From a virus, in the IMG/VR virus record IMGVR_UViG_3300037245_002836, positions 1 through 44,671 of that record: DNA of 44,671 bases; one strand, written 5' to 3'. The translations under genes and the position numbers were made by a program. The notes beneath the pieces were generated by a model, which was not told the origin of the DNA, did not search any database, and worked only from the letters and a program-made list of their open reading frames with translations. Positions 7,410-43,177 of the stretch are shown one piece after another (position 1 is the first letter of the stretch; the number at the start of each line of letters is the position of its first letter).

Positions 7410-7414
7410 GATAG

Positions 7415-9975: not shown

Positions 9976-10025
9976 CAGACTTCCCGGCCCTGGAATTAAA
10001 CGACTGCATGAAATGTGAGGCTTGA
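9972..10025 (+). CDS. Possible micro-ORF (17 aa)
   Basis: A 17-codon frame, MTDFPALELNDCMKCEA, overlaps the stop of the preceding gene by four bases (ATGA) and ends just before the next gene's start. It has no own ribosome binding site but could be translated by coupling. The CMKC pair could be a metal ligand. Too short for confidence; it may be only spacer. Confidence 0.2.
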   Translation: MTDFPALELNDCMKCEA

Positions 10026-10027
10026 AA

Positions 10028-10336
10028 ATGCCAGAATTAGAAATGTGCTTCATATGTGACCAAGAAACTGGCCGGGCAGGTAAGTTGGATGACTCTCTTT
10101 ATGTCTACGATAAAGCAGGGGATGAGACTGGCCCTTTGTGTGAGGGTTGCTTTGCGGAGCGTGACCCTGAAATGACAACCCTCACCCTATGCACGCGCCC
10201 CGGTTGTCACACTCGAATCATGGCAGGCTCGGTGTCCGCTGAAACCGGGATATGCCCTTTATGCAGGCTCTATGACGAGAAGACCGGGAAGCTAATTGAC
10301 CCTAAACTTTTACAGATTGGGAGGGAAGTAAGATGA
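10028..10336 (+). CDS. Zinc-ribbon protein (102 aa)
   Basis: Cysteine pairs CFIC, CEGC, CTRPGC and CPLC are evenly spread, so the protein probably binds two zinc ions. The start is the ATG at 10028, with GAGG some eight bases upstream. An in-frame TTG two codons earlier is less likely. The stop overlaps the start of the next gene. Such small zinc proteins in phage early regions often bind nucleic acid or host transcription factors; the role here is unknown. Confidence 0.6.
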   Translation: MPELEMCFICDQETGRAGKLDDSLYVYDKAGDETGPLCEGCFAERDPEMTTLTLCTRPGCHTRIMAGSVSAETGICPLCRLYDEKTGKLIDPKLLQIGREVR

Positions 10337-10869
10337 ACGGAAAAATCGACAAAGACGGCAATCTGCACATTGAACGGGCTGGGGTGATGAAGGCAGCCGG
10401 ATGTCCTCAGTTTGTTGGCGGTGACAGGTGTGGTGATTGGTGTGTACACTTTGGGAACCCAGGTAAAACCTCTATTACCCTTGACAATACCATTTACTTG
10501 ATGATTTGCAGGAATGGACAATTAAAATTTGACGAATTCACAGACGAGCGGAAAGTAAACCCGGAAATCCCACCTCTCCACGAACACCCAGAGGTTGCGG
10601 AGGTTGCCGCCTACATGGCGCAAATGGACACCGCCTTCGCTGACCTTATGGCACAGATAGAGGCCGGGGTAAAGGCCACTGAGGGGGATGACAGATCGTA
10701 CATGGGCCAATTCTGGAGGTGGCTTGACTCTCACTTTATCGACCAGATGAGGTTTCAAAGTTTTTGCGATGTGGTTGAGGCGATACGAGGATGGGAGCCG
10801 CCCTTGCCTACTTCCGAGGGTGAAGCAGCGAAGAGGCATGAGCGGGATCACGGGCCGGGGAGGGTGTGA
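10333..10869 (+). CDS. Hypothetical early protein (178 aa)
   Basis: The N-terminal 70 residues contain a cluster CPQF...CGDWCVHF...C (possible metal site). The second half is acidic and helical (HPEVAEVAAYMAQMDTAFAD onward) and the end is basic (KRHERDHGPGRV). It overlaps both neighbours by three to four bases, so it is translationally coupled to the zinc-ribbon gene upstream. No family recognised. Confidence 0.5.
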   Translation: MNGKIDKDGNLHIERAGVMKAAGCPQFVGGDRCGDWCVHFGNPGKTSITLDNTIYLMICRNGQLKFDEFTDERKVNPEIPPLHEHPEVAEVAAYMAQMDTAFADLMAQIEAGVKATEGDDRSYMGQFWRWLDSHFIDQMRFQSFCDVVEAIRGWEPPLPTSEGEAAKRHERDHGPGRV

Positions 10870-26364: not shown

Positions 26365-27027
26365 TTAAGTTTTTGCGATTAAGCGCACCTCACCAGTCAC
26401 TTTTAATGTCATTGATACCTTGGCAGCATCATCAACGGTAACGGCGGGTGCGAAGTTTACAACATAAGCATCGAAATAATAGAAGCTCGGCTGGTCGCCA
26501 GCGGTTGCCCCTTCGTCAGTAAACCTGATATCAAAAGACCTTAAGCCTCTTTCCTGCTGGTCACTCATCATGTTAGTCTGCTGTGCCGTAGCATCAAAGT
26601 TCAGCAACCCCTCAAGGGTCACCTGTCCATTATCCAAAAGTCCAGGGATAAACTCTTTTGCCGTGCTTTGCAAAGAGGTTATATCAATCTCACTGTTTGA
26701 TTGAGACGGCCCGCTAATTCCTGTCATCTCTGCAATCTCAGCCATCGTCTGCCCGGTTATCTGGATGGCTGTTGAGGCATCCACCGTTGACGGCTGGTAA
26801 AGAGTGATGGCAGAGGCCGACACTGCGGACACATTATAAACAGCCGTGTTATTCGTGCCGTTGGATAATATGTTCATTGCAGAGGTATAACCAAGATCCA
26901 CAAAATCAACCACAGCGGTATCAGAGGAAAGCACCTGAGAGGTTGAGAACGACAAGACACTTGATAATGTCACCACCTCCGTGGTACTGGCCCGGCGTAT
27001 CTGTACGCCTTGAGATTCCATAGTCAT
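26365..27027 (-). CDS. Tail tube protein, long paralogue (220 aa)
   Basis: Beta-rich. Contains SNSEIDITSLQSTAKEFIPG then LLDNGQVTLEGLLNFD, almost identical in pattern to the neighbouring gene 27040-27462, and ends with YVVNFAPAVTVDDAAKVSMT, like a tail tube subunit. Relative to its neighbour it has about 75 more residues near the N-terminus. AAGGAGG precedes the ATG by seven bases. Either this or the neighbour is the main tube protein. Confidence 0.75.
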   Translation of the reverse strand: MTMESQGVQIRRASTTEVVTLSSVLSFSTSQVLSSDTAVVDFVDLGYTSAMNILSNGTNNTAVYNVSAVSASAITLYQPSTVDASTAIQITGQTMAEIAEMTGISGPSQSNSEIDITSLQSTAKEFIPGLLDNGQVTLEGLLNFDATAQQTNMMSDQQERGLRSFDIRFTDEGATAGDQPSFYYFDAYVVNFAPAVTVDDAAKVSMTLKVTGEVRLIAKT

Positions 27028-27039
27028 AATAAAACCTCC

Positions 27040-27462
27040 TTAAGCGGTTGCCCCGGTCACGCCCCCGGTGATTCTGATAGTTCCTGAGAGGCTAACTTTG
27101 TCATCAGTGGCAATAGATGGCGAGAAATTAGTAATGTACCCGTCACCCACAATCTGATAACTTGACGCATCATTGAAAGCAATGACCCATTTTTTCTTAG
27201 TCCTGGCCCTCTGGTCAATCTGCATGTTTGCCTGACCAGGATCGGCAGGATCAAAATTTCCCTCGAAAGTAAGGTTGCCATTGTCAAGTAAACCGGGAAT
27301 AAATTCCTTGGCTGTACTTTGCAAGTCAGTGATGTCAATCTCACTGTTTGCAGCATTAGGGCCAGTTATCCCGGTAATGCCCCCAACCAGAGCCGTTGAG
27401 CTGGTACTAAGCCCGGTTGATGTCGACCAATAAAGTCTTGCGCCTTGTGATTCAAAAGCCAT
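27040..27462 (-). CDS. Tail tube protein, short paralogue (140 aa)
   Basis: Begins MAFESQGARLYWSTSTG and holds ANSEIDITDLQSTAKEFIPG then LLDNGNLTFEGNFDPADPG, the tube core, ending with ITNFSPSIATDDKVSLSGTI. It is clearly related to the gene directly downstream (26365-27027), so the two arose by tandem duplication. The shorter size is normal for a siphovirus tail tube protein. GGGAGTAGAAATC precedes the ATG. Confidence 0.75.
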   Translation of the reverse strand: MAFESQGARLYWSTSTGLSTSSTALVGGITGITGPNAANSEIDITDLQSTAKEFIPGLLDNGNLTFEGNFDPADPGQANMQIDQRARTKKKWVIAFNDASSYQIVGDGYITNFSPSIATDDKVSLSGTIRITGGVTGATA

Positions 27463-30339: not shown

Positions 30340-31302
30340 TTACCCGAGTACCTGGATCTTCTGCATCTCTCTAATTCCTTCGAGTGCGCCCGTGTACTGG
30401 TCCTCTTTTTTCGAGGCAATTCTGGCAGTTTCAGCCTCTTTGGCCCTCCGCATGGCGAGGTTCTTCTTAACGTTTGACAATTTCTTTTCATATGCTGTCG
30501 CCTCCGGTTCCTGTAGCCCGTATTGAAAGAGGGTCTTTAAAAGATCGCATTCATCGGGAAGCGTGATTTTAATTCCCAGGCCCTCCGCAATCCCAAGGTA
30601 ATATTCAACTGACGGCCTCTGCGCCATGTATTCTTCAGCCACGGCCATATCAACTCCCCAGATTCCAATCTCTTCAAAATCGTTGTATATAGCCCACGCA
30701 ATTTGCCAAGAAATCGTATTTGTGAAATATGGGTGAAACCTACGCAGCAGATCATCAAAAGGAAATACAGCAGCGTTTGGCATTGGGATTGGAATTGACT
30801 TAGACATGTCCGTGACTTTCTTGCCATTTTCCCAAATCTTGACGATATGCCCATTCTCAATAAGCGGGAGGTCAAGGCTTTGAACGTAAACGGGGAATTT
30901 AAGTTGTCCAAGTTGCTCAAGATATTCATTGACTTTCTGCCCCCTGAACACCGGGTTATATCGCCTTGAAATATTCCCCTTGCCATCATGCCCGAAAAAG
31001 TGAATCTCAAACCAACTGGTAAAACTTTGAAGCGGGACATGGTGGTAAAGATTATTAACCCCCATCATCTCCCAGGTGTCATCCCCCCAAGGCGCCTGAT
31101 CTCTGGAATCTGAACAGCCAATTATAGCCAACTTCTTCTTCTTGCCTTTAACGTCTTTTTTTCCAGGACCGCCAGCCGCATCCTCGGCCTCTTTCATGGC
31201 CTTCATTTTTTCGGACGGGTTCATGTCATCTTCTGGCTTCTGTCCCGTCACAAACGTTTTTGAAATATTGTAATTTTCTGGTCCTTTTTTAACTTCGGTC
31301 AT
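30340..31302 (-). CDS. Rossmann-like, GT42/Maf-reminiscent phage protein (320 aa)
   Basis: The Lys-rich N-terminus leads to KLAIIGCSDSRDQAPWGDDT (about 58-75), VNNLYHHV and SWFEIHFF (about 96-103). At about 190-220 are HPYFTNTISWQIAWAI and EEIGIWGVDMAV. The layout (G-x-S near the start, N-x-L-Y-x-x, W-x-E, S-x-x-x-x-A-x-A-I ... I-x-G-x-D) recalls GT42 sialyltransferases and MptE-like/Maf folds, but identity is too low to name it. A long coiled coil ends it. Similar proteins occur in the connector region of other phages as unknowns. It may decorate virion proteins using the sugar made by the cassette upstream (inference). Confidence 0.45.
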   Translation of the reverse strand: MTEVKKGPENYNISKTFVTGQKPEDDMNPSEKMKAMKEAEDAAGGPGKKDVKGKKKKLAIIGCSDSRDQAPWGDDTWEMMGVNNLYHHVPLQSFTSWFEIHFFGHDGKGNISRRYNPVFRGQKVNEYLEQLGQLKFPVYVQSLDLPLIENGHIVKIWENGKKVTDMSKSIPIPMPNAAVFPFDDLLRRFHPYFTNTISWQIAWAIYNDFEEIGIWGVDMAVAEEYMAQRPSVEYYLGIAEGLGIKITLPDECDLLKTLFQYGLQEPEATAYEKKLSNVKKNLAMRRAKEAETARIASKKEDQYTGALEGIREMQKIQVLG

Positions 31303-31356: not shown

Positions 31357-32139
31357 TTAAGTAGGTTTAATCTGCGCCAGGAAGCCGTGGTTGACTGCTG
31401 GCTTGTAGTAACCATCCTTTACGTGGCTGACAGACATCAGAACCGCAGTGGCGGCACTGGTGAGATGTACTGATACATACTTGCTGGTTGAATCCAAGGC
31501 ATAAGCCGGGATTTCAATCCTCTTCTCCTGATGGATAAGAGCCGCCAGGAAAGCCGCAGCGGTAGACTGCACATTCACAGTAGTTGAGGCTGTGTCATTA
31601 ACAACAATCTCAATAGCCGCCGTGGATATGGTCGAGGCTGTCAGGCCCACCAATGCGGGGTCAGTACTGGCGTTAATTTTGGAAGCCAGACTGTTTGTAA
31701 TGGCATCAAGCGCACCAGCACCAGATGAATCAATTGTTGACCCGAAAGATGTGGTGGCTGTAGCCGCCCCACCAATAGTAGACTGTGTCAATCCGACAGA
31801 ATTAATAAATATCTGATTATCGGTTGCCGCAGTGGTTACGGTGATACTCACTTTCCGGGCCAGTAATATCCCAGTGGTCCCAGGGTTGCCGAGTGTAAAA
31901 GCGGCGGAAAGAGTCGAGGCCGCTGAACTCCTGGCCTTGGTTGCTGATTCAGCCTGGAAGAGCTGAACAGTATCCTCAATCCCACCAGCAGCGGTCCCCA
32001 TGCCCACGGTATACATGAGAGTTTGCACACCCTCCATGTTAATAGCCTGAGAATAGAAAGTGCCGTTAGTGGAAATTGAAATAGCCTCATTTCCACTTGC
32101 GTATGCTTCCGTTTTTCGTGCTGTATTAATTAATGACAT
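31357..32139 (-). CDS. Virion-region protein after the capsid gene (260 aa)
   Basis: Ser/Thr/Ala-rich, beta-type sequence (SAISIST-like start MSLINTARKTEAYASGNEAI, then LARKVSITVTTAATDNQIFI). It directly follows the capsid gene with AAGGAGATTGAAAG before the ATG. Such a position and composition fit a head decoration or capsid-associated protein. No family recognised. Confidence 0.5.
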   Translation of the reverse strand: MSLINTARKTEAYASGNEAISISTNGTFYSQAINMEGVQTLMYTVGMGTAAGGIEDTVQLFQAESATKARSSAASTLSAAFTLGNPGTTGILLARKVSITVTTAATDNQIFINSVGLTQSTIGGAATATTSFGSTIDSSGAGALDAITNSLASKINASTDPALVGLTASTISTAAIEIVVNDTASTTVNVQSTAAAFLAALIHQEKRIEIPAYALDSTSKYVSVHLTSAATAVLMSVSHVKDGYYKPAVNHGFLAQIKPT

Positions 32140-32153: not shown

Positions 32154-33440
32154 CTATGCGCCCAGAATGACAAACGGGGAAACGAGGCTTGTGGCATCAC
32201 CCTCAAGCGGGATAGGTGCCTCAATCCAAGGATGGCCGTCAGTATTCCAGAACATTTTCATAACAGTTTTATTTTTGGTAAAATGCACATGCTCAGATGA
32301 GGCAATGAACGGGCCAGAACCATCCTTGATGATATACATTGACATATCCACCAACATCAGGTCGCCGGCGGTTCCAAGTCCAGGTGAACGCTCATTAAAA
32401 TTAAAATCCCTGCCCATCAAATCAGACGGTGCGCCTGAAACAGCGTCACGCCTCCAAATTAGGGTTCCAGCAGATCCAGGGTCAACAATCGTGTTCAACT
32501 GACTCTTGATTGTCGGAGAACCGATGTAAGTATAGGCAGAAAAACCGATTTCACGGGCCGCTTGTTCGATGTTTACCAAATCCTGATAGACAATTAAGTT
32601 TGCCGTACCTCTTGGAATGGTAATGGCCGCCGGACTATTCAAAACGCTCAAGGGTTGAGCAACTCCGGTGCCACTGGTAAGAAAGGTTGTATCCTCAAGA
32701 GCAACTTTGGCCTTCCTGAATTGTTCGGAAATAAACGGACCAGCCGCTGACCAATTACGGAGAAGTTTGTCGGTAATGACAACATGACCAGCAACCTCGT
32801 GCGGGGTCCAGGTAACATCCTTGAGCTTGATGTCAGTTTCAGGCTTTGCCTGACCCTCACCAATCCACTCAAACTCTACACCGCCATACATGTTTTCTGC
32901 CGCACTCTGGTTGAGGGCTGGCATGGTGATTGAGGCATCAGGCGGGCTACCTGCGGGAATTATTGTGGCACGAGGGCGCACAATGGCATCCTGAACGTCC
33001 AAGGAAAGAATCTGATCCCTGAACTGGTTCGGAACCATGAAACCGCCTTCCTCACCAACACCCATTGACTGCTCACGGGTGTCATACTGAGCGGCCAGCC
33101 TTGGGTCGTCACGTTTAAACCGGATGGAGTGAATGAACTCGCCAAAGGATTCAAACTCTTCATCGTTATCGGCTTTACCCGGCACATTGCGGATATTGAG
33201 TTCCCTCACTGGCTTATCAAGTTCGGCCTTTCTGGCAGCAGCTTTTTCTCTGCGGTCCATGTCAACTTCTTCTTTGCGGACTTCTTCCTCGACACCTTCA
33301 TAGTCTTTTTCGAGGGCATCATAAGCCGCCACCTCTTCATCGTTAATGTCACGCTTTTCTTCATCAACGAGAGCCAGCATGGCAGTCATTTTATCGTGGA
33401 TCTCTACCAGTTCTGCTCTCAGTTCTGCTAATTTATTCAT
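32154..33440 (-). CDS. HK97-type major capsid protein
   Basis: Protein of 428 residues. The N-terminal 100 residues are the coiled-coil delta domain (ELRAELVEIHDKMTAMLALV and YDALEKDYEGVEEEVRKEEV), removed by the prohead protease. The mature part has GGFMVPNQFRDQILSLDVQD, WTPHEVAGHVVITDKLLRNW, then GTGVAQPLSVLNSPAAI and the C-terminal QDLVNIEQAAREIGFSAYTY, all typical. ATG at 33440 follows GGAGGAAGCA; the upstream in-frame ATG is part of that site. It overlaps the protease gene by eight bases. Confidence 0.9.
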   Translation of the reverse strand: MNKLAELRAELVEIHDKMTAMLALVDEEKRDINDEEVAAYDALEKDYEGVEEEVRKEEVDMDRREKAAARKAELDKPVRELNIRNVPGKADNDEEFESFGEFIHSIRFKRDDPRLAAQYDTREQSMGVGEEGGFMVPNQFRDQILSLDVQDAIVRPRATIIPAGSPPDASITMPALNQSAAENMYGGVEFEWIGEGQAKPETDIKLKDVTWTPHEVAGHVVITDKLLRNWSAAGPFISEQFRKAKVALEDTTFLTSGTGVAQPLSVLNSPAAITIPRGTANLIVYQDLVNIEQAAREIGFSAYTYIGSPTIKSQLNTIVDPGSAGTLIWRRDAVSGAPSDLMGRDFNFNERSPGLGTAGDLMLVDMSMYIIKDGSGPFIASSEHVHFTKNKTVMKMFWNTDGHPWIEAPIPLEGDATSLVSPFVILGA

Positions 33441-34062
33441 TGCTTCCTCCATAGGATAAATTGTTAAGGTTGGCTATTCTGTTTTTCGCTTCCAGTTTTT
33501 TCCTCATGACATAAACCCGGCTCCCAGAAAAACCCCCCTCTTCTTTTTTGCGTAGTTCAAAATTTCTGAGTGCTATATCTGTCCCCTCATAAAACGGGAA
33601 CGTAACGGGCGAAACTTCAAAAAGCCTCACCTCAAGTAATGTTCGGAGCGGGATTTTAAGGTCGTTGCGGTCGCTTACATCGTCCCACTCTTCGCGGACT
33701 GGCTCAAATCCAAAAGACATTTGATCCACGTCTCCACGCTCGATTGACGCTATAAAACCACGCATTGCCTCGGTATCAGGCGGGGAAATTTCAACATGCA
33801 AACCCCGGTCATCTTCCCGAAGTTCCAATGTTCCCGCCTTTTTGCGCCCCATGACAATGGATGTGTCGTGGTTCCATAACGCTCTGATGTCGTCATTCTT
33901 CAGGCTCTCCCTGAACGCTCCCGGTGCTATTTTCTCGTCAAACCCCCAACCTTCCCCAATCTCGTCAAAGACTGCGGCATGACCAGACAGGCTCACCCCC
34001 CCATCTTCCCGCTTTTCAAACTTGAGGTCGTTAAAATTAACGGTTCTTTTTTCTTTATACAT
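33433..34062 (-). CDS. HK97-type prohead protease
   Basis: Protein of 209 residues, family U35 (HK97 protease). Key segments: VSLSGHAAVFDE, WGFDEKIAPGAFRESLKND, RALWNHDTSIVMGRKKAGTL, MRGFIASIERGDVDQMSFGF, then LFEVSPVTFPFYEGTDIAL. The His in LWNHD and the Ser in DQMSFGF are the predicted catalytic residues. ATG at 34062 follows AAGGTGACGAGG and lies just inside the portal gene's end. It processes the capsid protein delta domain. Confidence 0.9.
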   Translation of the reverse strand: MYKEKRTVNFNDLKFEKREDGGVSLSGHAAVFDEIGEGWGFDEKIAPGAFRESLKNDDIRALWNHDTSIVMGRKKAGTLELREDDRGLHVEISPPDTEAMRGFIASIERGDVDQMSFGFEPVREEWDDVSDRNDLKIPLRTLLEVRLFEVSPVTFPFYEGTDIALRNFELRKKEEGGFSGSRVYVMRKKLEAKNRIANLNNLSYGGSNE

Positions 34063-35317
34063 CCTCGTCACCTTCCGTGTCTGTTGGTTCGTTTGGTTCA
34101 TCATCCCCCGCCTCTCCCGGTGTGATATTGGGATTCTCGAACACTTCACCGCCTTCAATGGGGTTCATATTCTCTAAGGCTCTGACTTCGTTTACATTCA
34201 TCCACCTATTTTGCAGGGCCATAGCGTAGGCACCAAAGCGAGTTTTAGTGTCTGCCCTTAGTAACCCCTCGACTATAAACTTGATGAACAGCCCGGCCTT
34301 ACGCTCTGTCTCGGTCAAAAGAGACTGGTTCATGGCGTTTTCAAGGCGTGTTACCCAAGGAACAACCGTATATGTCACGTAAGATTGAAAGAACTGTTCG
34401 GCAGAGGCGAAGGTACTGGCTTTATCTTGTCGTTGGATTAATTGCAGGGGCATCCTGAAAAACCGGGCGATGTCCTCAATGGAAAAGCCCCGTGTCTCTA
34501 AGAACTGTGAATCTTCATTAGACAAGCCCAGAGTTTCTATCTTTAAACCACCCTCAAGCACAGCAACACCACGCTGACCATCACCACCCTGATTTTCTTC
34601 CCAAGACTCTTTCAATCTGGCAGCAGCGTCCTCTTTCATAACACCGGGCATTGAAAGGGCTATTCTTGGGGTTGCATCATTACCAAAGAACTTTTCCCCG
34701 TATTGTCTGGCGGCAATATCAAGGCCAATGGCCTCACGGGCGACCTCGACAGGGCCAATACCCCAGAAGCCGTCTTTGGTTAAATATTTGGGGTGGTATA
34801 TTTCATCTGGCCGAAAGGTCTGTTCTTTGCGCCCGTCTTCTGGCGGGGTCCACTTGTAGACAATTCTATTTCCATCAGCCTCAAGGGTTACAGAATCGAG
34901 GGGCAGTAACGGGATAAGTTGAAGTACCTCACCGCCCTTACTTCTCTGCACGAAGTTGACAGAGTTGCCCCTGAGATTAACCAGACTGACAGACAGTTCT
35001 TGGAATTCAAATGCCGTCTGGACCTCGTTGGCACGTTCTTTGAGGATTATATTAACGGGGTGATCTGGATCAGGCTCCCTGCCACCATCGTCAGTTTTCT
35101 TGAAAACACCACGGGGAAGTGATGCGATTGTTTCGGAGATTACACGATTACAAGCGAATACAGCGGAACTTCTCATGGCTGAATCTGGATTTACTACTGG
35201 CCCCGCCCGTGTGGGTAGGCCTTGACTTCCAAAAAGGAAAGGCCATTGCCAGCGTTCACCCGGCCCAGACCATCCAGCCTCTCGTTTTTCCTTGCGCCCA
35301 AACCCAAAAAAGGCCAT
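34055..35317 (-). CDS. HK97-type portal protein
   Basis: Protein of 420 residues. NPDSAMRSSAVFACNRVISE, TIASLPRGVFKKTDDGGREP, FEFQELSVSLVNLRGNSVNF, IYHPKYLTKDGFWGIGPVEV, and FSIEDIARFFRMPLQLIQRQ are classic HK97 portal blocks. The ATG at 35317 (MAFFGFGRKEKREAG) is favoured by homology; an in-frame start at 35347 is possible, and the ribosome binding site is not decisive. Acidic C-terminus. The portal normally follows the large terminase; here six kilobases of accessory genes separate them. Confidence 0.9.
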   Translation of the reverse strand: MAFFGFGRKEKREAGWSGPGERWQWPFLFGSQGLPTRAGPVVNPDSAMRSSAVFACNRVISETIASLPRGVFKKTDDGGREPDPDHPVNIILKERANEVQTAFEFQELSVSLVNLRGNSVNFVQRSKGGEVLQLIPLLPLDSVTLEADGNRIVYKWTPPEDGRKEQTFRPDEIYHPKYLTKDGFWGIGPVEVAREAIGLDIAARQYGEKFFGNDATPRIALSMPGVMKEDAAARLKESWEENQGGDGQRGVAVLEGGLKIETLGLSNEDSQFLETRGFSIEDIARFFRMPLQLIQRQDKASTFASAEQFFQSYVTYTVVPWVTRLENAMNQSLLTETERKAGLFIKFIVEGLLRADTKTRFGAYAMALQNRWMNVNEVRALENMNPIEGGEVFENPNITPGEAGDDEPNEPTDTEGDEDV

Positions 35318-35410
35318 ATGAAAACCAATCCTTGCGAATTGGCCCATACGGCCCTCAATGGTGACTTTACACCCAAAAGAAGAAAGTTTTTAACGACTCA
35401 GCATCGTTAG

Positions 35411-35657: not shown

Positions 35658-35846
35658 TCACGAACTCGGTTTTTCCATCTGGTAAGATGGACCCATGTGC
35701 TTTGTCGCTGGCTTCTTTTTAAAATTCACAGTCTGTTCAAGGCCGCAAGCCTTACATTTGCACCTCCCGACAAACTGCTCGGCATAAACAAGCGTCCACC
35801 CACACTTTTTACACTTTATTTTATGGCAGGTCATGTATTCGGTCAA
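35658..35846 (-). CDS. Com-like zinc-ribbon protein (62 aa)
   Basis: Protein with MTCHKIKCKKCGWTLVYAEQ and RCKCKACGLEQTV: two CxxC knuckles in the layout of Mu Com, an RNA-binding translational regulator. Translation seems to start at a TTG (35846): GGAGGG lies four bases upstream and the TTG overlaps the FkbM stop (TTGA). The ATG four codons later lacks a site. Whether it regulates translation of the cassette or late genes is inference. Confidence 0.6.
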   Translation of the reverse strand: MTEYMTCHKIKCKKCGWTLVYAEQFVGRCKCKACGLEQTVNFKKKPATKHMGPSYQMEKPSS

Positions 35847-36565
35847 TTTACCCTCCTGAAAATCAAATTTCTGGCCGGAATACCATCTTTTTCACGCCTG
35901 AATGTTGAGTGATTGGGCATTTTCATCAGATTTTTATCCAATTTAAAGCCGTTTGCGATCAATACTGCGGTTGCAACAACCCCTCTATCTGGCCCATTTA
36001 CCTCAATTAACACACTTTTTAAGCATTTATCCTTGAGAGTTTCGACCATTCCAGCCAAAACCTTAAGCTCTTGGCCGTCCACATCTATCTTAACATGTAC
36101 GTTTTGAGGTAAATTCATGACCTTAAAATCATCCAAGGTTAATCCAACTGTCGCCAAAACCGCTGTCGGGAATATTCTGCCTCCCCCTTCGTTAACCATT
36201 ACATTGAACTGACTGCCAGATGACCCATTCTCATCATTTACCACCGCAAGACGACCAAGACCAGACCTATCAGTTACGGCAACCGCATGTTCAATAATTG
36301 TTCCCATAATTTTAGGGTTTAATTTAATATTTTTTCTCAGTCGGGCAAAGTTCTTGGGGTCCGGCTCAAAGGCATCCACCGCCATACCTCTTGAGGCGGC
36401 ATAGAGTGAATAAATCCCGATATTAGCCCCAACGTCAATGAAATGATCCCATTTCGGCATGGTATCTATCCAGGCCAGGGTTTCCGGCTCCTTTGTCCAG
36501 AAGGTTTCAGCTCTCATGACCTCGATATCTGACTCGATTGACATCTCAAAAGGTATTGATTTCAT
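35843..36565 (-). CDS. FkbM family methyltransferase
   Basis: SAM-dependent O-methyltransferase of 240 residues. Motif I is FIDVGANIGIYSLYAAS (about 42-58), then AVDAFEPDPKNFARLRKNI (about 63-81), and VHVKIDVDGQELKVLAG, typical of FkbM. FkbM enzymes methylate hydroxyls of sugars and related compounds, so the natural substrate is the sugar made by neighbouring genes, by context. The start overlaps the HAD stop by four bases. Confidence 0.85.
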   Translation of the reverse strand: MKSIPFEMSIESDIEVMRAETFWTKEPETLAWIDTMPKWDHFIDVGANIGIYSLYAASRGMAVDAFEPDPKNFARLRKNIKLNPKIMGTIIEHAVAVTDRSGLGRLAVVNDENGSSGSQFNVMVNEGGGRIFPTAVLATVGLTLDDFKVMNLPQNVHVKIDVDGQELKVLAGMVETLKDKCLKSVLIEVNGPDRGVVATAVLIANGFKLDKNLMKMPNHSTFRREKDGIPARNLIFRRVN

Positions 36566-36885
36566 AGATTTAACCCCCCATATCCATTATTAAAATCTAA
36601 ATCCTCGAACTTCGTCACCGCCTTGTCATCAACCAAGAGGTCGAAAACAGGCTTATCAAGGCGAAGTTCGTCATATTCAGCCCCCCAGTCCTTTAATTGG
36701 CCCGCGGTCAACTCCCGGTGGTCTATCCCGGTCCCTACACCCCTGGCCGTCCAGTAGATTATCGTATGTCCGGCATTTCTTAGGCCGTTAATACGATCTA
36801 TGATGTAGCGGAACGGTGCTGCTTTGTCATACTGAGTGCCAATGGTCCGGCAGATGGTGTTGTCAATATCAACGTAGATTATCAT
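36562..36885 (-). CDS. HAD phosphatase (capless, sugar-phosphate type)
   Basis: Protein of 107 residues. HAD motif I DIDNTICRT with Asp6 (nucleophile) and Asp8; motif II YWTARG with Thr46; a Lys near DKPVFDLLVDDKA; the acidic motif IV is also there. Small HADs of this kind occur in capsule and nonulosonate loci, where one removes the phosphate after the condensing step. Start at 36885 follows AGAGGGGATGAGAAG and overlaps the transketolase stop. Substrate not shown by sequence; the KDN-9-phosphate-type product is the context guess. Confidence 0.75.
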   Translation of the reverse strand: MIIYVDIDNTICRTIGTQYDKAAPFRYIIDRINGLRNAGHTIIYWTARGVGTGIDHRELTAGQLKDWGAEYDELRLDKPVFDLLVDDKAVTKFEDLDFNNGYGGLNL

Positions 36886-38183
36886 CTTCTCATCCCCTCT
36901 ATTTCCGGCATTGCAGCCAGCCTGATATAAACCGGGCCGTCTGTGTTGTAGATCGCCCACCTGAGAGCCTTGTCAATGTCATTCCATCCTGGCTCAAGGA
37001 TTGTCATGCCCGGCATAGTTTTCATAAGGGCGATATCATCAAAAGCCTCGTGAGAATGTCCGATGTTTGACGGTAGCGGCCCGGCAAGACTCCCCACGTA
37101 GATTATATGTGTTCCCTCGGTGCAGTTATTATAAATCTGTTCGTTGGCCCTGCGGGTTAGGAAAGCAGCGAAGGAATGAACAACTGGGATGAACCCGGAT
37201 AGGGCAAGACCACCAGCGGTTGACACTATGTCTTGCTCTGCTATTCCACATTGGATGTACTGATTGGGGTATTTTCCTCTAATAACCTCAAGGCCATGGT
37301 CGATGCAAAGGTCGGCATCCAACACTATTATATTTTTATCACGATTGACAAGGAGTGTTAATATTTCACCACAATTTCTACCCAGAGATTTAATGTTTTT
37401 TGGAGTTTGATATTTATTCTCGTTTTTCCGTGAATTAGGCTTCTCAACCTCAACCACCTTCGGATTTCCCGCTTTCGGTAAAAGTTCCTCAAGCGCAAGG
37501 CTGTACTCTTCCTCACTCAATGCGCCTGAGTGGTAGGGGTAGGGTTCGCCAGCGTCTTCCATGAAAGATACGCCTTGGCCTTTTTTGGTGAACACAGACT
37601 CAACACATCCAACCCCATTACCTATTTCAAGACCCTTCATTTTAAAGTCAGACCCAAAACCGTTACAGTCAATAATTACCCTTAAATTGTCAGGTAATTT
37701 TTGAAAAAACGCCTCCCAGTTCTGCCCCTCTGCCATCTCCCCATCACCACAAAGCACAAACACCCGGCCCGGCTCACCTTTCATCTTCTTTGCCAAGGCC
37801 AGCCCCTTTCCTTTGCTTATCCCCATGCCCAGGCTCCCGGTATTGGTCACAATCCCCGGTGTTTTAATGTCGGGGTGTCCCGGTAGGCCGTCCGGCTGCC
37901 TGAAAGTGTGAATATCGCCAAACGGGATAATGCCACGAGCCGCCAAGATAGAATATTGCAACGGCACATCATGGCCCTTACTGCTCAGAAAAATATCATC
38001 CGGCCCCATTTCCTCATAATAAAGCCGGGTCATTATTTCAGCCGATGAAAAACAGGTGCCGATATGACCGCTTCCAGCCCTTTGGATCATATACAGAGCG
38101 TTGATCCGGTGCATGTAGGCAAGCCGTTCAACGGAATCACCCTTAAGGTAAAACTCACTATATGGTATATATTTAAGAATCAT
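36882..38183 (-). CDS. Transketolase-like enzyme lacking the C-terminal domain
   Basis: Protein of 433 residues. Thiamine diphosphate site: GDGEMAEGQNWEAFFQKLP with Asn174 (GDG at 146-148), and GSGHIGTCFSSAEI and SSKGHDVPLQYSIL at the N-terminus. The Pyr domain follows from about 260 with ADLCIDHGLEVIRGKYPNQY then CGIAEQDIVSTAGGLAL (catalytic Glu). Normal transketolases have about 620-660 residues, so the C-terminal domain is missing, as in two-domain transketolases of sugar clusters. It transfers two-carbon units between sugars. ATG at 38183 follows GGAGGTGGGGA and overlaps the cytidylyltransferase end. Confidence 0.85.
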   Translation of the reverse strand: MILKYIPYSEFYLKGDSVERLAYMHRINALYMIQRAGSGHIGTCFSSAEIMTRLYYEEMGPDDIFLSSKGHDVPLQYSILAARGIIPFGDIHTFRQPDGLPGHPDIKTPGIVTNTGSLGMGISKGKGLALAKKMKGEPGRVFVLCGDGEMAEGQNWEAFFQKLPDNLRVIIDCNGFGSDFKMKGLEIGNGVGCVESVFTKKGQGVSFMEDAGEPYPYHSGALSEEEYSLALEELLPKAGNPKVVEVEKPNSRKNENKYQTPKNIKSLGRNCGEILTLLVNRDKNIIVLDADLCIDHGLEVIRGKYPNQYIQCGIAEQDIVSTAGGLALSGFIPVVHSFAAFLTRRANEQIYNNCTEGTHIIYVGSLAGPLPSNIGHSHEAFDDIALMKTMPGMTILEPGWNDIDKALRWAIYNTDGPVYIRLAAMPEIEGMRR

Positions 38184-38895
38184 TCCCCACCTCCGGCAAA
38201 GTTGCCTTGCCACTTTTGATTAATTGTTCAGCCATCATCCAGTCAAGCTCAGTGTTAATGTCAAAGCCCTCGATTGCATCCATCATAAACGGGGCAATCA
38301 CTTTCCCTGACCATGAGCCACCCTCAAGATTAACAGTCTTACAAAATTCCATGCTTGAATTTTGGACATAAACAGGATCGAAGTCCTGTGTCGGCTGATT
38401 GTAAAGTTCCATCAAGTCGCTTTCTGCCATCAACGGCTTTGCGACCTCTTCCAGAATCTCCCACATCTTCATGGGATGCTCAGTTACCTTGACCATTGAG
38501 CGCATAGAGGTGATATCATCCCGTGCGCTGTACGCCTCCCACATGGCCTTGATTGTTTCGGGCTTGCGGAATGGCGTGGTCGGCCTAATTATGGCGAAGG
38601 TATCGAATATTTCAGCATAATCCACCATCTCATTAAAAAAATTATTTATCCAAATAAAATCAGTTTCACTGGATTCAGATTTTTCTCTTTCGTAGGACCA
38701 CGCATAATAATTTTTAGCAACTCTATATATTTCATAAGTGTCCGAACAAACCCAAACACTTTCAAACACCCCTGAATCAATGGCTGCCCTGATCGAATAG
38801 GCAACCAAAGGATGACCGTTCAACCCACGAACATTCTTGCCCGGCACCCTCTGGCTTCCCCCTCTTGCGCCTATCAATGCTATCGGTTTAGTCAA
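38173..38895 (-). CDS. neuA-like: CMP-nonulosonate (NeuA-type) cytidylyltransferase
   Basis: Protein of 240 residues. The nucleotide-binding start PIALIGARGGSQRVPGKNVR and GLNGHPLVAYSIRAAI, then SVWVCSDTYEIYRVAKNYYA, AIIRPTTPFRKPETIKAMWE and IEGFDINTELDWMMAEQLI are the NeuA/KdsB-like blocks. It activates an acidic nine-carbon-type sugar as its CMP derivative. It is in the same operon as the NeuB gene, so its substrate is the NeuB product or its phosphate-free form. It overlaps a small gene upstream and the transketolase downstream. Confidence 0.85.
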   Translation of the reverse strand: MTKPIALIGARGGSQRVPGKNVRGLNGHPLVAYSIRAAIDSGVFESVWVCSDTYEIYRVAKNYYAWSYEREKSESSETDFIWINNFFNEMVDYAEIFDTFAIIRPTTPFRKPETIKAMWEAYSARDDITSMRSMVKVTEHPMKMWEILEEVAKPLMAESDLMELYNQPTQDFDPVYVQNSSMEFCKTVNLEGGSWSGKVIAPFMMDAIEGFDINTELDWMMAEQLIKSGKATLPEVGNDS

Positions 38896-39148
38896 AAATA
38901 ACCCTCCCTTTTATCTCTTTTGCGTTGCAACAAGAAGAAAAACTCTGTGTTATTTCAAGGCTTCCGATTGGTAAAAATGTCCCTTCCTCAACCTCTGGTA
39001 AATCCCCACCCTTTAAAATTAAAATAACTTGAGGCGGTAACTTCGTGTAATCCATTTGAAGCGCAAGAATAGACATTCCTTCAGGAAGGCTGAATAAATC
39101 AGCGAGAACCTCAACCGTGGCTGATATCCTACAGGCTCTCTCAGTCAT
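38888..39148 (-). CDS. Hypothetical protein (86 aa) in the cassette
   Basis: Starts MTERACRISATVEVLADLFS. Mostly beta (VILILKGGDLPEVEEG, GSLEITQSFS) with a Cys pair SCCNAKEI near the end. It overlaps the NeuA gene and the Cys-rich gene upstream. The start is uncertain: an in-frame GTG three codons earlier is possible. No family recognised. It may simply be a phage structural accessory trapped in the cassette. Confidence 0.45.
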   Translation of the reverse strand: MTERACRISATVEVLADLFSLPEGMSILALQMDYTKLPPQVILILKGGDLPEVEEGTFLPIGSLEITQSFSSCCNAKEIKGRVIFD

Positions 39149-39542
39149 CTTTGCCACTCGTTGATGGTTGAGTTAAAAGAACACCATCCACCGAACCTGT
39201 CGAACCCCTGGCAATCACGTTAATGGATTCATCGTCCTCTAAAATATCCAAGGCATCTTTTGATGAAACACTTCCACTACCAGAATGATCAACCCCAACA
39301 TCATTTTTGCTCATGTATGGTCCAGGTGCATAAACCCCGGCCCCGTGAAAATGATGGCAGCCCACTTTATCCAGCCTCACAGGAGGCAGAACAGCCTCAA
39401 CTTGTGTCTGGTCCTGCTGAAACTTATTCGCTCCCGGCTTATTAATCGTGGCGACTTGAGGGATATCGTAATTACATATCCCGACCTCTTCATTCTGAGC
39501 CTGACAATATAAACACTCTCCACATTTATTTCTTTCTACCAT
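39141..39542 (-). CDS. Hypothetical Cys-containing protein (133 aa)
   Basis: N-terminal ERNKCGECLYCQAQNEEVG with C-x-x-C-x-x-C and CNYD nearby suggests a metal or iron-sulfur site. The pattern CHHFHGAGVYAPGPY follows. The C-terminal third is Gly/Ser-rich (HSGSGSVSSKDALDILEDDE). It overlaps its neighbours on both sides by a few bases. No family recognised. Confidence 0.45.
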   Translation of the reverse strand: MVERNKCGECLYCQAQNEEVGICNYDIPQVATINKPGANKFQQDQTQVEAVLPPVRLDKVGCHHFHGAGVYAPGPYMSKNDVGVDHSGSGSVSSKDALDILEDDESINVIARGSTGSVDGVLLTQPSTSGKDD

Positions 39543-39724
39543 AATTTCTCCCCCTCATTCGAAGTTAAAAATACACCTATAGCCAAAAAGATGACTATAA
39601 AAATAACTGAGACAAACGCACCAAGTGCCAGCCAAATACCATCAGAAACAGCCATAGATACAAATATCACTAAAAAAACAAATCCTATCATTAAGCCGCC
39701 CAATATTCTTTTAAGGTTTACCAT
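39536..39724 (-). CDS. Small two-TM membrane protein (62 aa)
   Basis: Starts MVNLKRILGGLMIGFVFLVI; two membrane segments (about 7-27 and 31-53) with almost no charged residues between them. It overlaps the SDR gene by seven bases and the Cys-containing gene downstream. It may anchor part of the cassette machinery to the host membrane, but this is only a guess. Confidence 0.5.
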   Translation of the reverse strand: MVNLKRILGGLMIGFVFLVIFVSMAVSDGIWLALGAFVSVIFIVIFLAIGVFLTSNEGEKLW

Positions 39725-40407
39725 GCTGTATATCCCCCATCGACCATCATCTCATGGCCCGTCATATAGGTTTGCATTAAAAGTCCAATCAAGGCCCACT
39801 TGTAATCGTCTGCTTGGGCCATCCTCTGCATTGGAACGCTTCTCAAATATTTTCTCTTAAAGGTTTCTTCCTGCCCGCTGTCAAAGGCCGCCAGTGAAAG
39901 CATGTTGACCCGGATGCCAAAGGGCGCACCCCTGGTCGCAAGATGTCTGGTCAATTCCCCTAATGCCGCCTTGCTTGCCCCATACATGGCTGGCTTATCG
40001 AATCCGGCAGGATAGTTCCGATGGTCAGGTGACACGCTCCCAAAGATAGAGCCGATAAAAATAATATGACCGCCCCATCTTTTAAATAACTCCCAAAAAG
40101 CCTCACAAACATCCTGCGCCCCAAAATAGTTAACGTCCATTATCCTGCGACTGCCCCACATATCTGATGTTGAATTTGGTGGATTGTCTATTCCGGCATT
40201 GTAAATAATAATTTCAGGTATTTCTTTTTTAGTCCGGCAAACCCTAACATAATTTTCTATACTCCCTGGAACTTCAACGTCTAACTCTGTTAAATCAGGA
40301 GCAAGCACGGTCACGCCACTGCTTTCCAAGGCCTCCAACCACACAGGCCCAAGGTTGCCGGAGCTACCCACAAGCAGGGCTGTTTTTCCTTCAAGGTTGA
40401 ATGTCAT
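39718..40407 (-). CDS. Short-chain dehydrogenase (SDR)
   Basis: Protein of 229 residues. Cofactor-binding VGSSGNLG (about 13-20), YNAG (69-72), catalytic Ser120 and Y142-GAS-K146, with VDGGYTAW at the C-terminus. It is a classical SDR. Proteins of this type (PtmA-like) occur in legionaminate- and pseudaminate-type loci, which fits its place directly after the NeuB gene. It overlaps NeuB and the membrane protein gene. Substrate unknown; a sugar or sugar nucleotide is likely from context. Confidence 0.85.
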   Translation of the reverse strand: MTFNLEGKTALLVGSSGNLGPVWLEALESSGVTVLAPDLTELDVEVPGSIENYVRVCRTKKEIPEIIIYNAGIDNPPNSTSDMWGSRRIMDVNYFGAQDVCEAFWELFKRWGGHIIFIGSIFGSVSPDHRNYPAGFDKPAMYGASKAALGELTRHLATRGAPFGIRVNMLSLAAFDSGQEETFKRKYLRSVPMQRMAQADDYKWALIGLLMQTYMTGHEMMVDGGYTAW

Positions 40408-41459
40408 CCTCCACTCTCCTGTAACGTATTAGCACCTAAAACGCTCTCAGTGGTTAAGTCTTCCAACGCCTTGTATCCGGGTAATTTATCAATATACTCA
40501 GGTGGAAGCTTTGCGAATGGGCTTCTCAGTTCCAGGTTGTCCACCATTACAATTTCACCCTTTCTGATGCCATATTTCAAATACGGACTCTTACCCATCT
40601 TCCGCATCGGCTCAACCTCTTCCGGTAGAATAATTTTGATAGCATCGGAAGACATCATGTCCTTTGTTTCGGAAAGATAGGAAATCATTTTAGAGAGGCC
40701 GGAAGGTGCAAGGGAGAAAGCGTGATCAGTTCCCTTTGCGGTGCGGTCAAGGGTGAAATGCTTCTCGATAATTCTTGCGCCCAAGGAATAGGCCAGGGCC
40801 GCATCAAGGGTGCCGGAATAATGAGAACTCAATCCGATGATATTATCAGGGAAAACCTCCATGAGCTTAGATATAAACCTGAGATTCATTTGGCTTGATT
40901 TGGTTGGATAGGTGGCTGTGCATTGCAGAAAAGCCACGTTAGCGAAATTAATCTCTGTTTTTAATTTAATAACATCAGCAAGACTTTTTCCCCCCAAGGA
41001 AATCAAAACAGGCTTACCCGTTTCCTGCACCCTCCGAATCAACGGGTAATTATTTGAATCGCCAGAGGCAATTTTGTAAACCGGGCAGTTAACCCTTTCC
41101 AGGAGATCCACGGACTCGAAGTCAAACGGGGTGGCAAAAGCCGTGATTCCAATCCTGCCGCCCACGGCCAGCAGACCCTTGAACATTACCTCGCTGAACT
41201 CTAAAGCCTCCCTGTGTTCACCATAGGTCGCACCATAGGCTTGTTCTGAGTTGTAAGGTGCATCGTAAAACTCTTTCGTATATAGTTTCTTGTTGTCCCG
41301 CTTCTGGAATTTCACCGCATCGGCCCCGCAAGCCCTGGCCTTCTCAATCATCAGGGTTGCTGTGTCAACATCACCCCCGTGGTTATGGCCTATTTCGGCA
41401 ATTACATAGGCTGGTGAATCCTGGGTGATCTCCGTGCCGTTAAGATTTATTTTTCTCAT
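40404..41459 (-). CDS. neuB-like: NeuB-type nonulosonate synthase
   Basis: Protein of 351 residues; condenses PEP with an aldose (phosphate) to form a 2-keto-3-deoxy nine-carbon-type acid. Blocks: AEIGHNHGGDVDTATLMI (21-38), DAVKFQ (47-52), ITAFATPFDFES (105-116), KIASGD (129-134), HFTLDRTAKGTDHAFSL (234-250). The C-terminal part from about 285 is the SAF (antifreeze-like) domain. All main motifs are present. ATG follows TAGGAGGGGAA, eight bases after the terminase gene. It starts the cassette within the late operon. Confidence 0.9.
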   Translation of the reverse strand: MRKINLNGTEITQDSPAYVIAEIGHNHGGDVDTATLMIEKARACGADAVKFQKRDNKKLYTKEFYDAPYNSEQAYGATYGEHREALEFSEVMFKGLLAVGGRIGITAFATPFDFESVDLLERVNCPVYKIASGDSNNYPLIRRVQETGKPVLISLGGKSLADVIKLKTEINFANVAFLQCTATYPTKSSQMNLRFISKLMEVFPDNIIGLSSHYSGTLDAALAYSLGARIIEKHFTLDRTAKGTDHAFSLAPSGLSKMISYLSETKDMMSSDAIKIILPEEVEPMRKMGKSPYLKYGIRKGEIVMVDNLELRSPFAKLPPEYIDKLPGYKALEDLTTESVLGANTLQESGG

Positions 41460-41467: not shown

Positions 41468-43177
41468 CTAAATAATAGTTAAACCTCGTTTATCATACGG
41501 ATTTTCTTCCTCTGGGTCTTCCGGTTCTGCCCTGGTGAAGGATAAAAGCGTTGCGGCAATGCCATCAATCTTGTTTTGCGGTAGCTTCTTATCCTTTCGT
41601 GGGAAGATATTCCCCTTCGCATCCTCATGTGCAACGGCATTTGAGGCCATCCAATAGTAAACCGGGTTCCCATCCCAGTGAAAACGCTTGTCAAAATAGA
41701 TCGCCTCGAACTGACGGGCCGCCCCTGACCATACCTGAGTACTGCCAGCCGGGACAGCAACCACCTCCATGCCCTCGTTAATCATATGTGCTGCAAACTG
41801 TTGTGAGTGCCACGGGTCAATCACCACCTCCTTTATTTCCATCTGCTCTCTGACTTTCCTTAAGTCTTCCTCGATAATATCATAATCTATAATGTTCCCA
41901 GGGGTAGAAATCAAGTGCCCTTGGTCTACCCACCCTGAATAGGAAGCATTTTTGCTCTCTTGAATGGTTGTTTCGGGCAGATAGAACCTATTAAATAAAT
42001 AATATTGTCTTAACCCCCGCTCGTCAATCTGCCTGAACAGGAATATCATTGCCGCAATGTCCCACTTCTCCGCAAAATCTATGCCAACCCAAAGCTCGGA
42101 CCCTGCGAAATCCTCCATTTTCATATCAAGATCTATGCCACGCTTAAGTTTTTCCAGGTTGATCCATTGGGAATCAGCCCCAGCCCAAACATTCAGCCTT
42201 AATTTTTTAAATGTGTTTGCCGCTGATGGTGTGTTGATTGCTTTCTTGGCTAACCTTTTGATATCATCAGGGTAAACAGAAACGTCCCAGTTAGGATTTG
42301 CTTTTTGCCACACGCCTGGATCAGTCCATTCATCCTCTTCATCAACCGTGTAAATGATCCCGAAATAGGTTTCATCTTCAATCACACCTTCAAGTATTTT
42401 AGTAACATAGTTCCTCTGTTCATAACAAATCCCTGCGGTGTCCGTCCCTGCGGTAGTCACGATAAACATTAAAGGTTGAGAACGTGCGCCCATCCCTGTT
42501 TCCATGACATCATAGATCCCCCTCGTCTTGTGGGCATGAAGTTCATCTATCAAGGGGCAATGAGGATTGAGGCCGTCAAGGGTGTTGGAATCAGCGGCCA
42601 GGGCTTTGAAAATATTAGCATCTCTTTCAATATATAAGGCATGTGCGCCAACACCTATTTCAAATTTATTTCTAAACCCAGAATCAGAATTGTTTTTCTT
42701 TGTCATCTGCTTTGCCACACCAAAAATTATATTAGCTTGGTCTTTTGTTGTGGCGGCTGAATAAACTTCTGCCCCCGGCTCACCATCTAAAGCCAACATA
42801 TATATACCAACGCCAGCGGCTATGGTTGACTTGGCATTTTTTCTCGGGACCTCTTCATATGCTACTCTGTATCGCCTCAAGCCATCATTTTTATTTACCC
42901 ATCCAAAGGTGGTGGTTAAAACAAAACACTGCCACCCCTCAAGATCAATAGTGCTGCCAGCCCATTTACCTTTCACATGAGGCAGTCTGGATATAAATTT
43001 ACATACCCGTTCAGCCGCTTCCTTGTCGAAACGATAGGGCCAGTCCTTATCCTTGACCAGTGCAAGGTCTTTGGTCTGCCGCTCACAGGCCAGCTTTACC
43101 CACTTGCAAGCGTCTATCTTGCCAGACGCTATGTCTTTGCGGTACTGGTTTGCTTTATTGACATGGGGGGATGGCAT
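41468..43177 (-). CDS. terL: Large terminase subunit (Terminase_1, HK97-type)
   Basis: Protein of 569 residues. ATPase: Walker A-like PRKNAKST (111-118), Walker B PLIDELH (208-214), MFIVTTAGTD coupling motif (about 237-246). Nuclease domain: WVGIDFAEKWDIAAMIFLF (Asp367), VIDPWHSQQF (about 447) and KIDGIAATLLS near the end. Full length for the family. It translocates DNA into the prohead and cuts concatemers. The P27-like small subunit and HNH are nearby. The start abuts a 90-residue gene. Confidence 0.95.
   Translation of the reverse strand: MPSPHVNKANQYRKDIASGKIDACKWVKLACERQTKDLALVKDKDWPYRFDKEAAERVCKFISRLPHVKGKWAGSTIDLEGWQCFVLTTTFGWVNKNDGLRRYRVAYEEVPRKNAKSTIAAGVGIYMLALDGEPGAEVYSAATTKDQANIIFGVAKQMTKKNNSDSGFRNKFEIGVGAHALYIERDANIFKALAADSNTLDGLNPHCPLIDELHAHKTRGIYDVMETGMGARSQPLMFIVTTAGTDTAGICYEQRNYVTKILEGVIEDETYFGIIYTVDEEDEWTDPGVWQKANPNWDVSVYPDDIKRLAKKAINTPSAANTFKKLRLNVWAGADSQWINLEKLKRGIDLDMKMEDFAGSELWVGIDFAEKWDIAAMIFLFRQIDERGLRQYYLFNRFYLPETTIQESKNASYSGWVDQGHLISTPGNIIDYDIIEEDLRKVREQMEIKEVVIDPWHSQQFAAHMINEGMEVVAVPAGSTQVWSGAARQFEAIYFDKRFHWDGNPVYYWMASNAVAHEDAKGNIFPRKDKKLPQNKIDGIAATLLSFTRAEPEDPEEENPYDKRGLTII

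Follow-up and report, generated by a model that had tools for sequence, protein, structure and literature searches.

A late-operon gene block for a putative CMP-ulosonic acid pathway in a phage, with a GT42-like candidate transferase beside the capsid genes

The DNA analysed here, referred to as the window, is a stretch of 44,671 nucleotides (IMG/VR virus record IMGVR_UViG_3300037245_002836). On its minus strand, six enzymes are encoded as late genes between the large terminase gene (TerL) and the portal gene, in the order NeuB, SDR, NeuA, transketolase, HAD and FkbM (35843-41459), and an unannotated gene that we designated GTx lies outside this block, two genes after the capsid gene and between the capsid and connector genes. 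The features are as follows.

41468..43177, minus strand: large terminase (TerL), upstream flank, given for context
40404..41459, minus strand: NeuB-type PEP-dependent ulosonate synthase, 351 aa (PF03102, E 5e-66)
39718..40407, minus strand: SDR oxidoreductase, 229 aa (PF13561/PF00106, E 1e-22)
39536..39724, minus strand: accessory hydrophobic small ORF, 62 aa, coupled through overlaps
39141..39542, minus strand: accessory Cys-rich small ORF, 133 aa, coupled through overlaps
38888..39157, minus strand: accessory small ORF, 89 aa, coupled through overlaps
38173..38895, minus strand: NeuA-type CMP-ulosonate cytidylyltransferase, 240 aa, TTG start (PF02348, E 3e-18)
36882..38183, minus strand: transketolase-like ThDP enzyme without the C-terminal domain (likely start 38183; listed ORF from 38213)
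36562..36885, minus strand: accessory small HAD phosphatase of the EcbF/BcbF type (TIGR01689, 4e-5; PHROG 1238, 1e-22; listed ORF from 36960)
35843..36565, minus strand: FkbM-family SAM methyltransferase, 240 aa (PF05050, 6e-11; TIGR01444, 6e-24)
35658..35846, minus strand: zinc-ribbon-like small ORF, 62 aa, last coupled gene of the block, overlapping FkbM by 4 bp
34055..35347, minus strand: portal, downstream flank, given for context
32154..33452, minus strand: HK97-type major capsid protein, possible acceptor, 38-39% identical to annotated Caulobacter phage capsid proteins
31357..32139, minus strand: 260-aa Ser/Thr-rich (25%) protein, candidate decoration protein and possible glycan acceptor by conserved position and composition
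30340..31302, minus strand: GTx, GT42/DUF115-like candidate CMP-ulosonate transferase, 320 aa (AF2 pLDDT 91.3, Foldseek)

The NeuB start is separated from TerL by a gap of 8 bp, and the junctions after NeuB, down to the zinc-ribbon-like ORF, are overlaps of 4-17 bp, mostly with Shine-Dalgarno-like stretches; the genes form a unit in the late operon. An earlier note on this DNA had described one overlapping run of six enzymes; its location and enzymes stand, but three small ORFs (62, 133 and 89 aa), for which no family match was found in Pfam, NCBIfam or PHROG, separate SDR from NeuA. The same note had called an enzyme block at this place unusual and proposed looking for the gene order in other phages. 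About 15 further IMG/VR phage populations, diverged phages included, carry NeuB-SDR-NeuA-(TKT)-FkbM in the same position, while the TerL-portal gap is at most 185 bp in capsid-protein relatives lacking the cassette. As judged from this recurrence, the block is a long-standing feature of the phage lineage, not a stray insert. The phage collection yielded only three NeuB matches, only one GTx match (a Microcystis phage) and no near DNA match to the first 25 kb of the window.

The NeuB protein belongs to the ulosonate synthase family, having the Pfam domain together with the PEP and metal residues. In comparison with NmNeuB, residues E25, K53, Q55, T110, K129, S154, S213, H215, E234, H236 and D247 are identical, N184 is replaced by Ala (11 of 12 compared residues matching), and in addition Arg314 is replaced by Ser, a position that is also replaced in nearly all aligned NeuB proteins of the phage cassettes. 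Arg314 positions the N-acetyl group of ManNAc (PMC6795526). Since the phage NeuB lacks this residue, it is predicted not to make Neu5Ac or any other 5-acetamido nonulosonate; plain KDN is still a conceivable product. NeuB also scored below the cut-offs of the Neu5Ac/pseudaminic acid synthase equivalogs (TIGR03569, 230 vs 400 bits; TIGR03586, 217 vs 340 bits). NeuA carries a CTP_transf_3 domain and has CMP-Neu5Ac synthetases as its nearest solved relatives (1eyr, E 9e-37), identifying it as a CMP-ulosonate synthetase, and it scored 93 bits against the PseF equivalog cut-off of 206 bits.

The SDR-type Ser, Tyr and Lys are kept in all six aligned phage copies of the SDR, and FkbM matches TIGR01444 above the cut-off. 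The transketolase, likely 433 aa in length, has the pyrimidine and ThDP domains in Pfam (4e-21 and 5e-15), and the phage transketolases end after the pyrimidine domain. As in human TKT, the ThDP motif and the catalytic His/Glu are kept; unlike human TKT, the C-terminal domain is absent, and R318, S345, H416 and R474, which we take to be the sugar-phosphate site of the human enzyme (our literature search found no paper on transketolase phosphate contacts), are all replaced. The four residues are replaced in 42 of 42 aligned sequences of the subfamily, save for a rare Lys at R474 (L011), and S345 is Asp in every one of them. Together with the missing Arg314 of NeuB and a HAD that lies outside the conserved core, this loss of the phosphate-binding residues, shared with the bacterial relatives, points to a probably new sugar built from substrates that carry no phosphate.

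Those bacterial relatives lie in a cassette of the order NeuB-HAD-SDR-ALDH-NeuA-TKT, found in bacteria of about eleven phyla (L014-L041), of which the literature search found no description. The bacterial cassette shares NeuB, SDR, NeuA and transketolase homologues with the phage block, and in both the transketolase phosphate site is lost; NeuB Arg314 is mostly lost in the bacteria as well. In contrast to the phage block, it has a full-length transketolase (~650 aa), an aldehyde dehydrogenase and, in some cases, a KdsC-like HAD, whereas FkbM and GTx are found on the phage side.

No glycosyltransferase was detected by sequence families among the proteins scanned, and we therefore performed a structure-based search. 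GTx has no significant match in Pfam, PHROG, the NCBIfam glycosyltransferase families or PDB sequences: a first profile of seven sequences matched nothing in the PDB, and in a further sequence-profile search CstII ranked first, weakly, at E 0.4. AF2 models built from 7 sequences (pLDDT 68) and from 65 sequences (pLDDT 91) both gave GT42 sialyltransferases as all of their top PDB matches. By Foldseek, the ten best of 350,542 PDB chains were all GT42 sialyltransferases (probability 0.95-1.00), so that the predicted model has the overall fold of a GT42 CMP-sialic acid transferase, with TM-scores of 0.39-0.48 marking the relationship as remote; DUF115/MptE-like proteins are among its fold neighbours from viruses. 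Asn, Thr-Asn and Asp motifs of GTx align with CstII, in which N31, T-S-G, D154, Y156/Y162 and H188 are presumably the CMP-binding and catalytic residues; no counterpart of the catalytic His188 was identified. The modelled fold thus suggests that GTx, although outside the GT42 sequence family, is a candidate CMP-ulosonate transferase.

The occurrence of GTx was compared with that of the cassette. Within the capsid lineage the two coincide completely (11/0/0/23 table, p 3e-9), but a single change on the capsid tree explains this association, and the table was therefore set aside as independent support. Among loci with other or unseen capsids, GTx occurred with NeuB in 7 of 34, compared with 0 of 23 controls (p 0.03); an example is L144, where GTx is accompanied by NeuB and a UDP-GlcNAc 2-epimerase. 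In L010, L011, L012/L013 and L126, the cassette itself contains GTx paralogues. FkbM is the cassette gene retained in relatives without NeuB. Some relatives with GTx carry FkbM and lack NeuB (L100 and L122) or have NeuB alone (L104 and L131), which suggests that GTx may use other donors.

Taken together, we consider it reasonably likely that the phage encodes a CMP-ulosonic acid pathway (an ulosonic acid being a sialic-acid-like 2-keto-3-deoxy sugar acid) and a GT42-like transferase, by which its own particle would be glycosylated during head assembly. The earlier note had proposed a cassette for an ulosonate-type activated sugar in the late operon, with virion glycosylation or surface masking as its suggested purpose, and the finding of a GT42-like gene beside the capsid genes strengthens that case. 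In the proposed pathway, SDR, together with the transketolase in this sub-group, would produce or modify an aldose that carries neither a phosphate nor a 2-acetamido group; NeuB would couple the aldose with PEP to give an ulosonate; NeuA would convert the ulosonate to its CMP form; GTx would attach the sugar to a late protein, for which the capsid and the Ser/Thr-rich protein next to it are the most plausible candidates; and FkbM would O-methylate the glycan. The computations establish the enzyme families, the retention of most catalytic residues, the conservation of the unit and the GT42-like fold of GTx, whereas the exact sugar, the order in which SDR and transketolase act, the acceptor and the benefit are inferred. 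The gene of the 260-aa Ser/Thr-rich protein sits between the major capsid gene and GTx. The case for this protein as a cassette-specific acceptor is weakened, since a gene of similar size (244 aa) occupies this position in Caulobacter phage Kronos, which lacks the cassette. The glycan might protect the particle against binding to surfaces or against recognition, or make it more stable. The more specific version, a new ulosonic acid from unphosphorylated sugars, with a rewired transketolase in one branch, placed as an O-methylated sugar on the capsid by the GT42-like enzyme, is put forward tentatively.

It is rather unlikely, in our estimate, that the CMP-ulosonate is instead transferred to the LPS or capsule of the host, blocking superinfection or altering a receptor or antigen. 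The classical substrate of GT42 enzymes is lipooligosaccharide, which they sialylate, and glycosyltransferases can lie next to the bacterial relatives of the cassette. Prophage nonulosonate genes that change the host capsule are also known, namely epaA/epaB of Acinetobacter, found in 17 prophages (PMC12053666). However, the cassette lies in the late operon between TerL and portal and GTx between the capsid and connector genes, while a lysogenic-conversion module would be expected in a temperate phage with an integrase and outside the late structural operon; no integrase, transporter or flippase was found among the proteins scanned (a subset of the ORFs in a possibly incomplete record), and a surface could hardly be remodelled in the short interval between late expression and lysis.

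Less probable still is a classical KDN or KDN-9-phosphate route, the latter named in the earlier note, in which Man-6-P and PEP would be condensed and a HAD phosphatase and CMP transfer would follow; the transketolase would then be incidental. NeuB, HAD and NeuA are all present, the loss of Arg314 would suit a non-acetamido sugar such as mannose, and the relatives of the HAD among the fetched loci are restricted to NeuB-bearing viral contigs, one of them a NeuA-HAD fusion. The HAD, most likely starting at 36885 and about 107 aa long, was nevertheless detected solely by the NCBIfam EcbF/BcbF and PHROG 1238 models, and no KdsC-type phosphatase is present in the cassette. Moreover, the other phage cassettes have no HAD, which places it outside the conserved core, and on this ground we rejected the KDN-9-phosphate route as the core logic; the route would also leave SDR, transketolase and FkbM without a role, and across many bacterial phyla members of the transketolase subfamily go together with NeuB.

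We regard as very improbable that GTx uses the CMP-ulosonate to modify a non-virion protein of host or phage, such as RNA polymerase or a defence protein: no transmembrane or secretion feature was seen in GTx, and it also occurs in phages with unrelated capsids, but within the capsid lineage it keeps its position among the head genes, and the cassette belongs to the late block. Captured host DNA or a misassembly has a negligible probability, even though the nearest cellular relatives of the enzymes are bacterial, since the 6,814 bp from the TerS region through TerL, NeuB, SDR and NeuA to TKT, including the TerL-NeuB junction, recur with 100% identity in an independent contig of IMG/VR (L002), since diverged phages keep the same gene order, which also rules out a chance arrangement, and since the phage transketolases form one clade (support 99/99).

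The usual view is that phages, in glycosylating their particles, borrow nucleotide sugars of the host at most, and to our knowledge no virus has been described before with a complete CMP-ulosonate pathway that serves the virion. If true, the proposal of virion glycosylation would establish the first such pathway, with a parallel in an unstudied bacterial ulosonate pathway, and a conserved acidic-sugar pathway with its own transferase in a head and packaging operon would mean that some phages make their own glycan coat. It also predicts a new sugar and points to the little-known pairing of NeuB and transketolase across bacterial phyla; the literature search found no paper that links NeuB with transketolase or deals with the sialylation of phage capsids. 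The biosynthesis of sialic, pseudaminic and legionaminic acids with CstI/CstII has NeuB, NeuA and the fold of the CMP-sugar transferase in common with the phage system, but the phage block lacks genes for a HexNAc dehydratase, an aminotransferase and an acetyltransferase, and adds transketolase, SDR and FkbM. In mycobacteriophages such as Che8, phage glycosyltransferases glycosylate capsid proteins and alter antibody recognition (Freeman et al. 2023, cited in PMC11256854). Phage-encoded glycosylation is common to those phages and to our proposal; for those phages only glycosyltransferases are reported in the text consulted, whereas the packaging and head operon of the present phage holds a whole putative CMP-ulosonate pathway with a GT42-like transferase. 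Stenotrophomonas phage DLP4 likewise carries a NeuB-like gene (PMC6469090), but DLP4 and the epaA/epaB prophages have one or two phage-borne nonulosonate genes, compared with a full pathway that is a fixed part of the late operon throughout a phage lineage. Finally, the proposal would give a function to the large, unnamed phage protein family of GTx, which was matched in at least 188 IMG/VR stretches. Within this family, intein-like inserts were observed at the same conserved motif in L145, L175 and L189/L190.

The earlier note had described a block of sugar enzymes between the terminase and portal genes of this 44,671-bp IMG/VR virus record, and the gene calls together with Pfam, NCBIfam and PHROGs confirmed both the block and its enzyme families. 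It is flanked by the following genes:

41468-43177, minus strand, large terminase (TerL), upstream flank
34055-35347, minus strand, portal, downstream flank

From TerL to portal on the minus strand, the order is NeuB, SDR, three small ORFs, NeuA, a transketolase-like enzyme (TKT), a small HAD protein, FkbM and a 62-aa ORF. NeuB starts 8 bp past TerL, the genes that follow it overlap by 4-17 bp at each junction as far as the 62-aa ORF, and Shine-Dalgarno-like stretches precede most of the genes, indicating that the block belongs to the late operon. Misassembly was excluded, since L002, an independent IMG/VR contig, matches the window at 100% identity along 6,814 bp that run from the TerS region across the TerL-NeuB junction into the transketolase gene. 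Elsewhere in the window, two tandem genes (26365-27462) each match the major tail protein family phrog_158, and the early region encodes a DNA methyltransferase (3837-4577).

The same gene order recurs in diverged viral contigs. When viral contigs were scanned with the transketolase as query, 6 further contigs from about five populations (L008-L013) were found, all carrying NeuB-SDR-NeuA-TKT-FkbM in identical order, with TerL in view in 5/6, the portal in view in 6/6, and enzymes about 34-49% identical to those of the window. Two further scans yielded two more transketolase-bearing populations (L210, L221) as well as populations with NeuB-SDR-NeuA-FkbM and no transketolase (L096, L099, L120, L128, L175, L185); thus, NeuB-SDR-NeuA-FkbM is the core and the transketolase marks one branch. 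In one cassette otherwise without transketolase, a 95-aa transketolase N-terminal fragment lies directly ahead of NeuB (L111:1062-1349), perhaps a decayed gene. The HAD is private to the window phage among the phage cassettes compared. Since its relatives among the fetched loci occur only in three viral contigs (L005, L007, L169), all NeuB-bearing, and one is fused to a NeuA-type cytidylyltransferase (L005:5832-6851), the protein probably has an accessory role in this chemistry.

The earlier reading of this block as a KDN-9-phosphate cassette for virion glycosylation or surface masking was supported in part; the sugar logic changed, and a newly found transferase was added. In the tree, a single clade (99/99) unites the phage transketolases and lies within a bacterial subfamily whose genes belong to NeuB-(KdsC-like HAD)-SDR-aldehyde dehydrogenase-NeuA-TKT cassettes of about eleven phyla (L014-L041); the papers searched contained no description of such a cassette. 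All of the cassette transketolases, phage and bacterial (about 42), keep the catalytic Glu and ThDP motifs and have R318, S345, H416 and R474 replaced (human transketolase numbering, from alignment), with Asp for S345 in every one and Lys for R474 in L011 only. These four residues are the phosphate contacts of the human enzyme, and with them replaced the cassette enzyme probably moves ketol groups between unphosphorylated sugars. In the window NeuB, 11/12 of the other NmNeuB active-site residues compared are kept, N184 being Ala. The C-terminal domain residue Arg314 holds the N-acetyl group of ManNAc in position (PMC6795526). Ser, Ala, Ile or Thr takes its place in the phage cassette NeuBs and in all compared NeuBs of the bacterial transketolase cassettes but one (L040), while pseudaminate synthase retains the Arg, as do two further viral NeuBs (L004_357, L144). 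The substrate would therefore probably be without a 2-acetamido group.

No glycosyltransferase was recognised by sequence family among the proteins scanned. The candidate transferase, which we call GTx, had no match as such in Pfam, PHROG or NCBIfam:

30340-31302, minus strand, GTx, 320 aa, two genes past the major capsid gene

Relatives are encoded in at least 188 IMG/VR stretches, and paralogues lie within the cassette itself in L010, L011, L012/L013 and L126. Tandem duplicates were seen at L106:1058-2625 and L107:3479-4991. Its motifs, which run from an N-terminal IVGCSD-type loop through NN to YFTNSISWMIALAI...GVDM, had prompted the guess of a CstII-like fold ahead of the structure search. 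For a first AlphaFold model (7 sequences, pLDDT 68), the best seven PDB matches were seven CstII chains; for a second (65 sequences, pLDDT 91.3), the best ten were all GT42 sialyltransferase chains (CstII, CstI and a Pasteurella enzyme; prob 0.95-1.00, TM 0.39-0.48). A structure-independent sequence-profile search of the PDB also placed CstII first, as a weak match (E 0.4). The annotated fold neighbours among viral structures were DUF115/MptE-like proteins, the fold relatives of Maf-type flagellin glycosyltransferases. Inteins tend to sit at active sites, and intein-like insertions, which start with Cys, end in His-Asn and precede Thr/Ser, occupy the identical position between GVDMA and EYxxQRPS in L145, L175 and L189/L190; one of them has a match to LAGLIDADG:

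L145:191-1720, intein-like insertion in GTx
L175:12098-13846, intein-like insertion in GTx
L189:2407-3966, intein-like insertion in GTx

Among GTx loci that fall outside the capsid lineage or have no capsid gene in view, 7/34 carry NeuB, against 0/23 controls (p 0.03); L144 carries GTx together with NeuB and UDP-GlcNAc 2-epimerase. We conclude that GTx is a remote transferase of the GT42/DUF115 type and a candidate for GT42 in the strict sense; its donors are most likely CMP-ulosonates (sialic-acid-like 2-keto-3-deoxy sugar acids). The L144 genes (668-10675), with an Arg314-bearing NeuB, lie near structural genes in an unrelated phage gene set and resemble a classical precursor route for sialic or legionaminic acid.

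Capsid-protein relatives fell into two groups, compared in unique contigs that show both TerL and portal. Of those with GTx downstream of the capsid gene, 11/11 have cassette genes in a 1.3-8.2 kb TerL-portal gap; of those without GTx, 23/23 have a gap of at most 185 bp and 0 cassette genes. This split represents one evolutionary event, not 34 independent observations, because one change suffices on the capsid tree (support 96/92). The cultured Caulobacter phage Kronos, whose capsid protein is similar, falls in the group without GTx and cassette. The module has been retained over deep divergence.

In the best reading, SDR and, in the window phage, transketolase would make or tailor an aldose, NeuB would build the ulosonate, NeuA would activate it with CTP, GTx would transfer it and FkbM would methylate it. 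Relatives without NeuB retain FkbM and GTx (L100, L122), in keeping with a role for both at the end of the pathway. The virion is the favoured target, given that the genes belong to the head/packaging block, that GTx has the capsid gene on one side and connector genes on the other, and that the proteins scanned included no surface-export or integrase gene. Che8-type mycobacteriophages, as cited in PMC11256854, provide a precedent for glycosylation of the phage particle. The main rival is that the sugar modifies the host surface, for which epaA/epaB provide a precedent (PMC12053666). Candidate acceptors on the virion are the capsid protein and a Ser/Thr-rich 260-aa protein (25% S+T).
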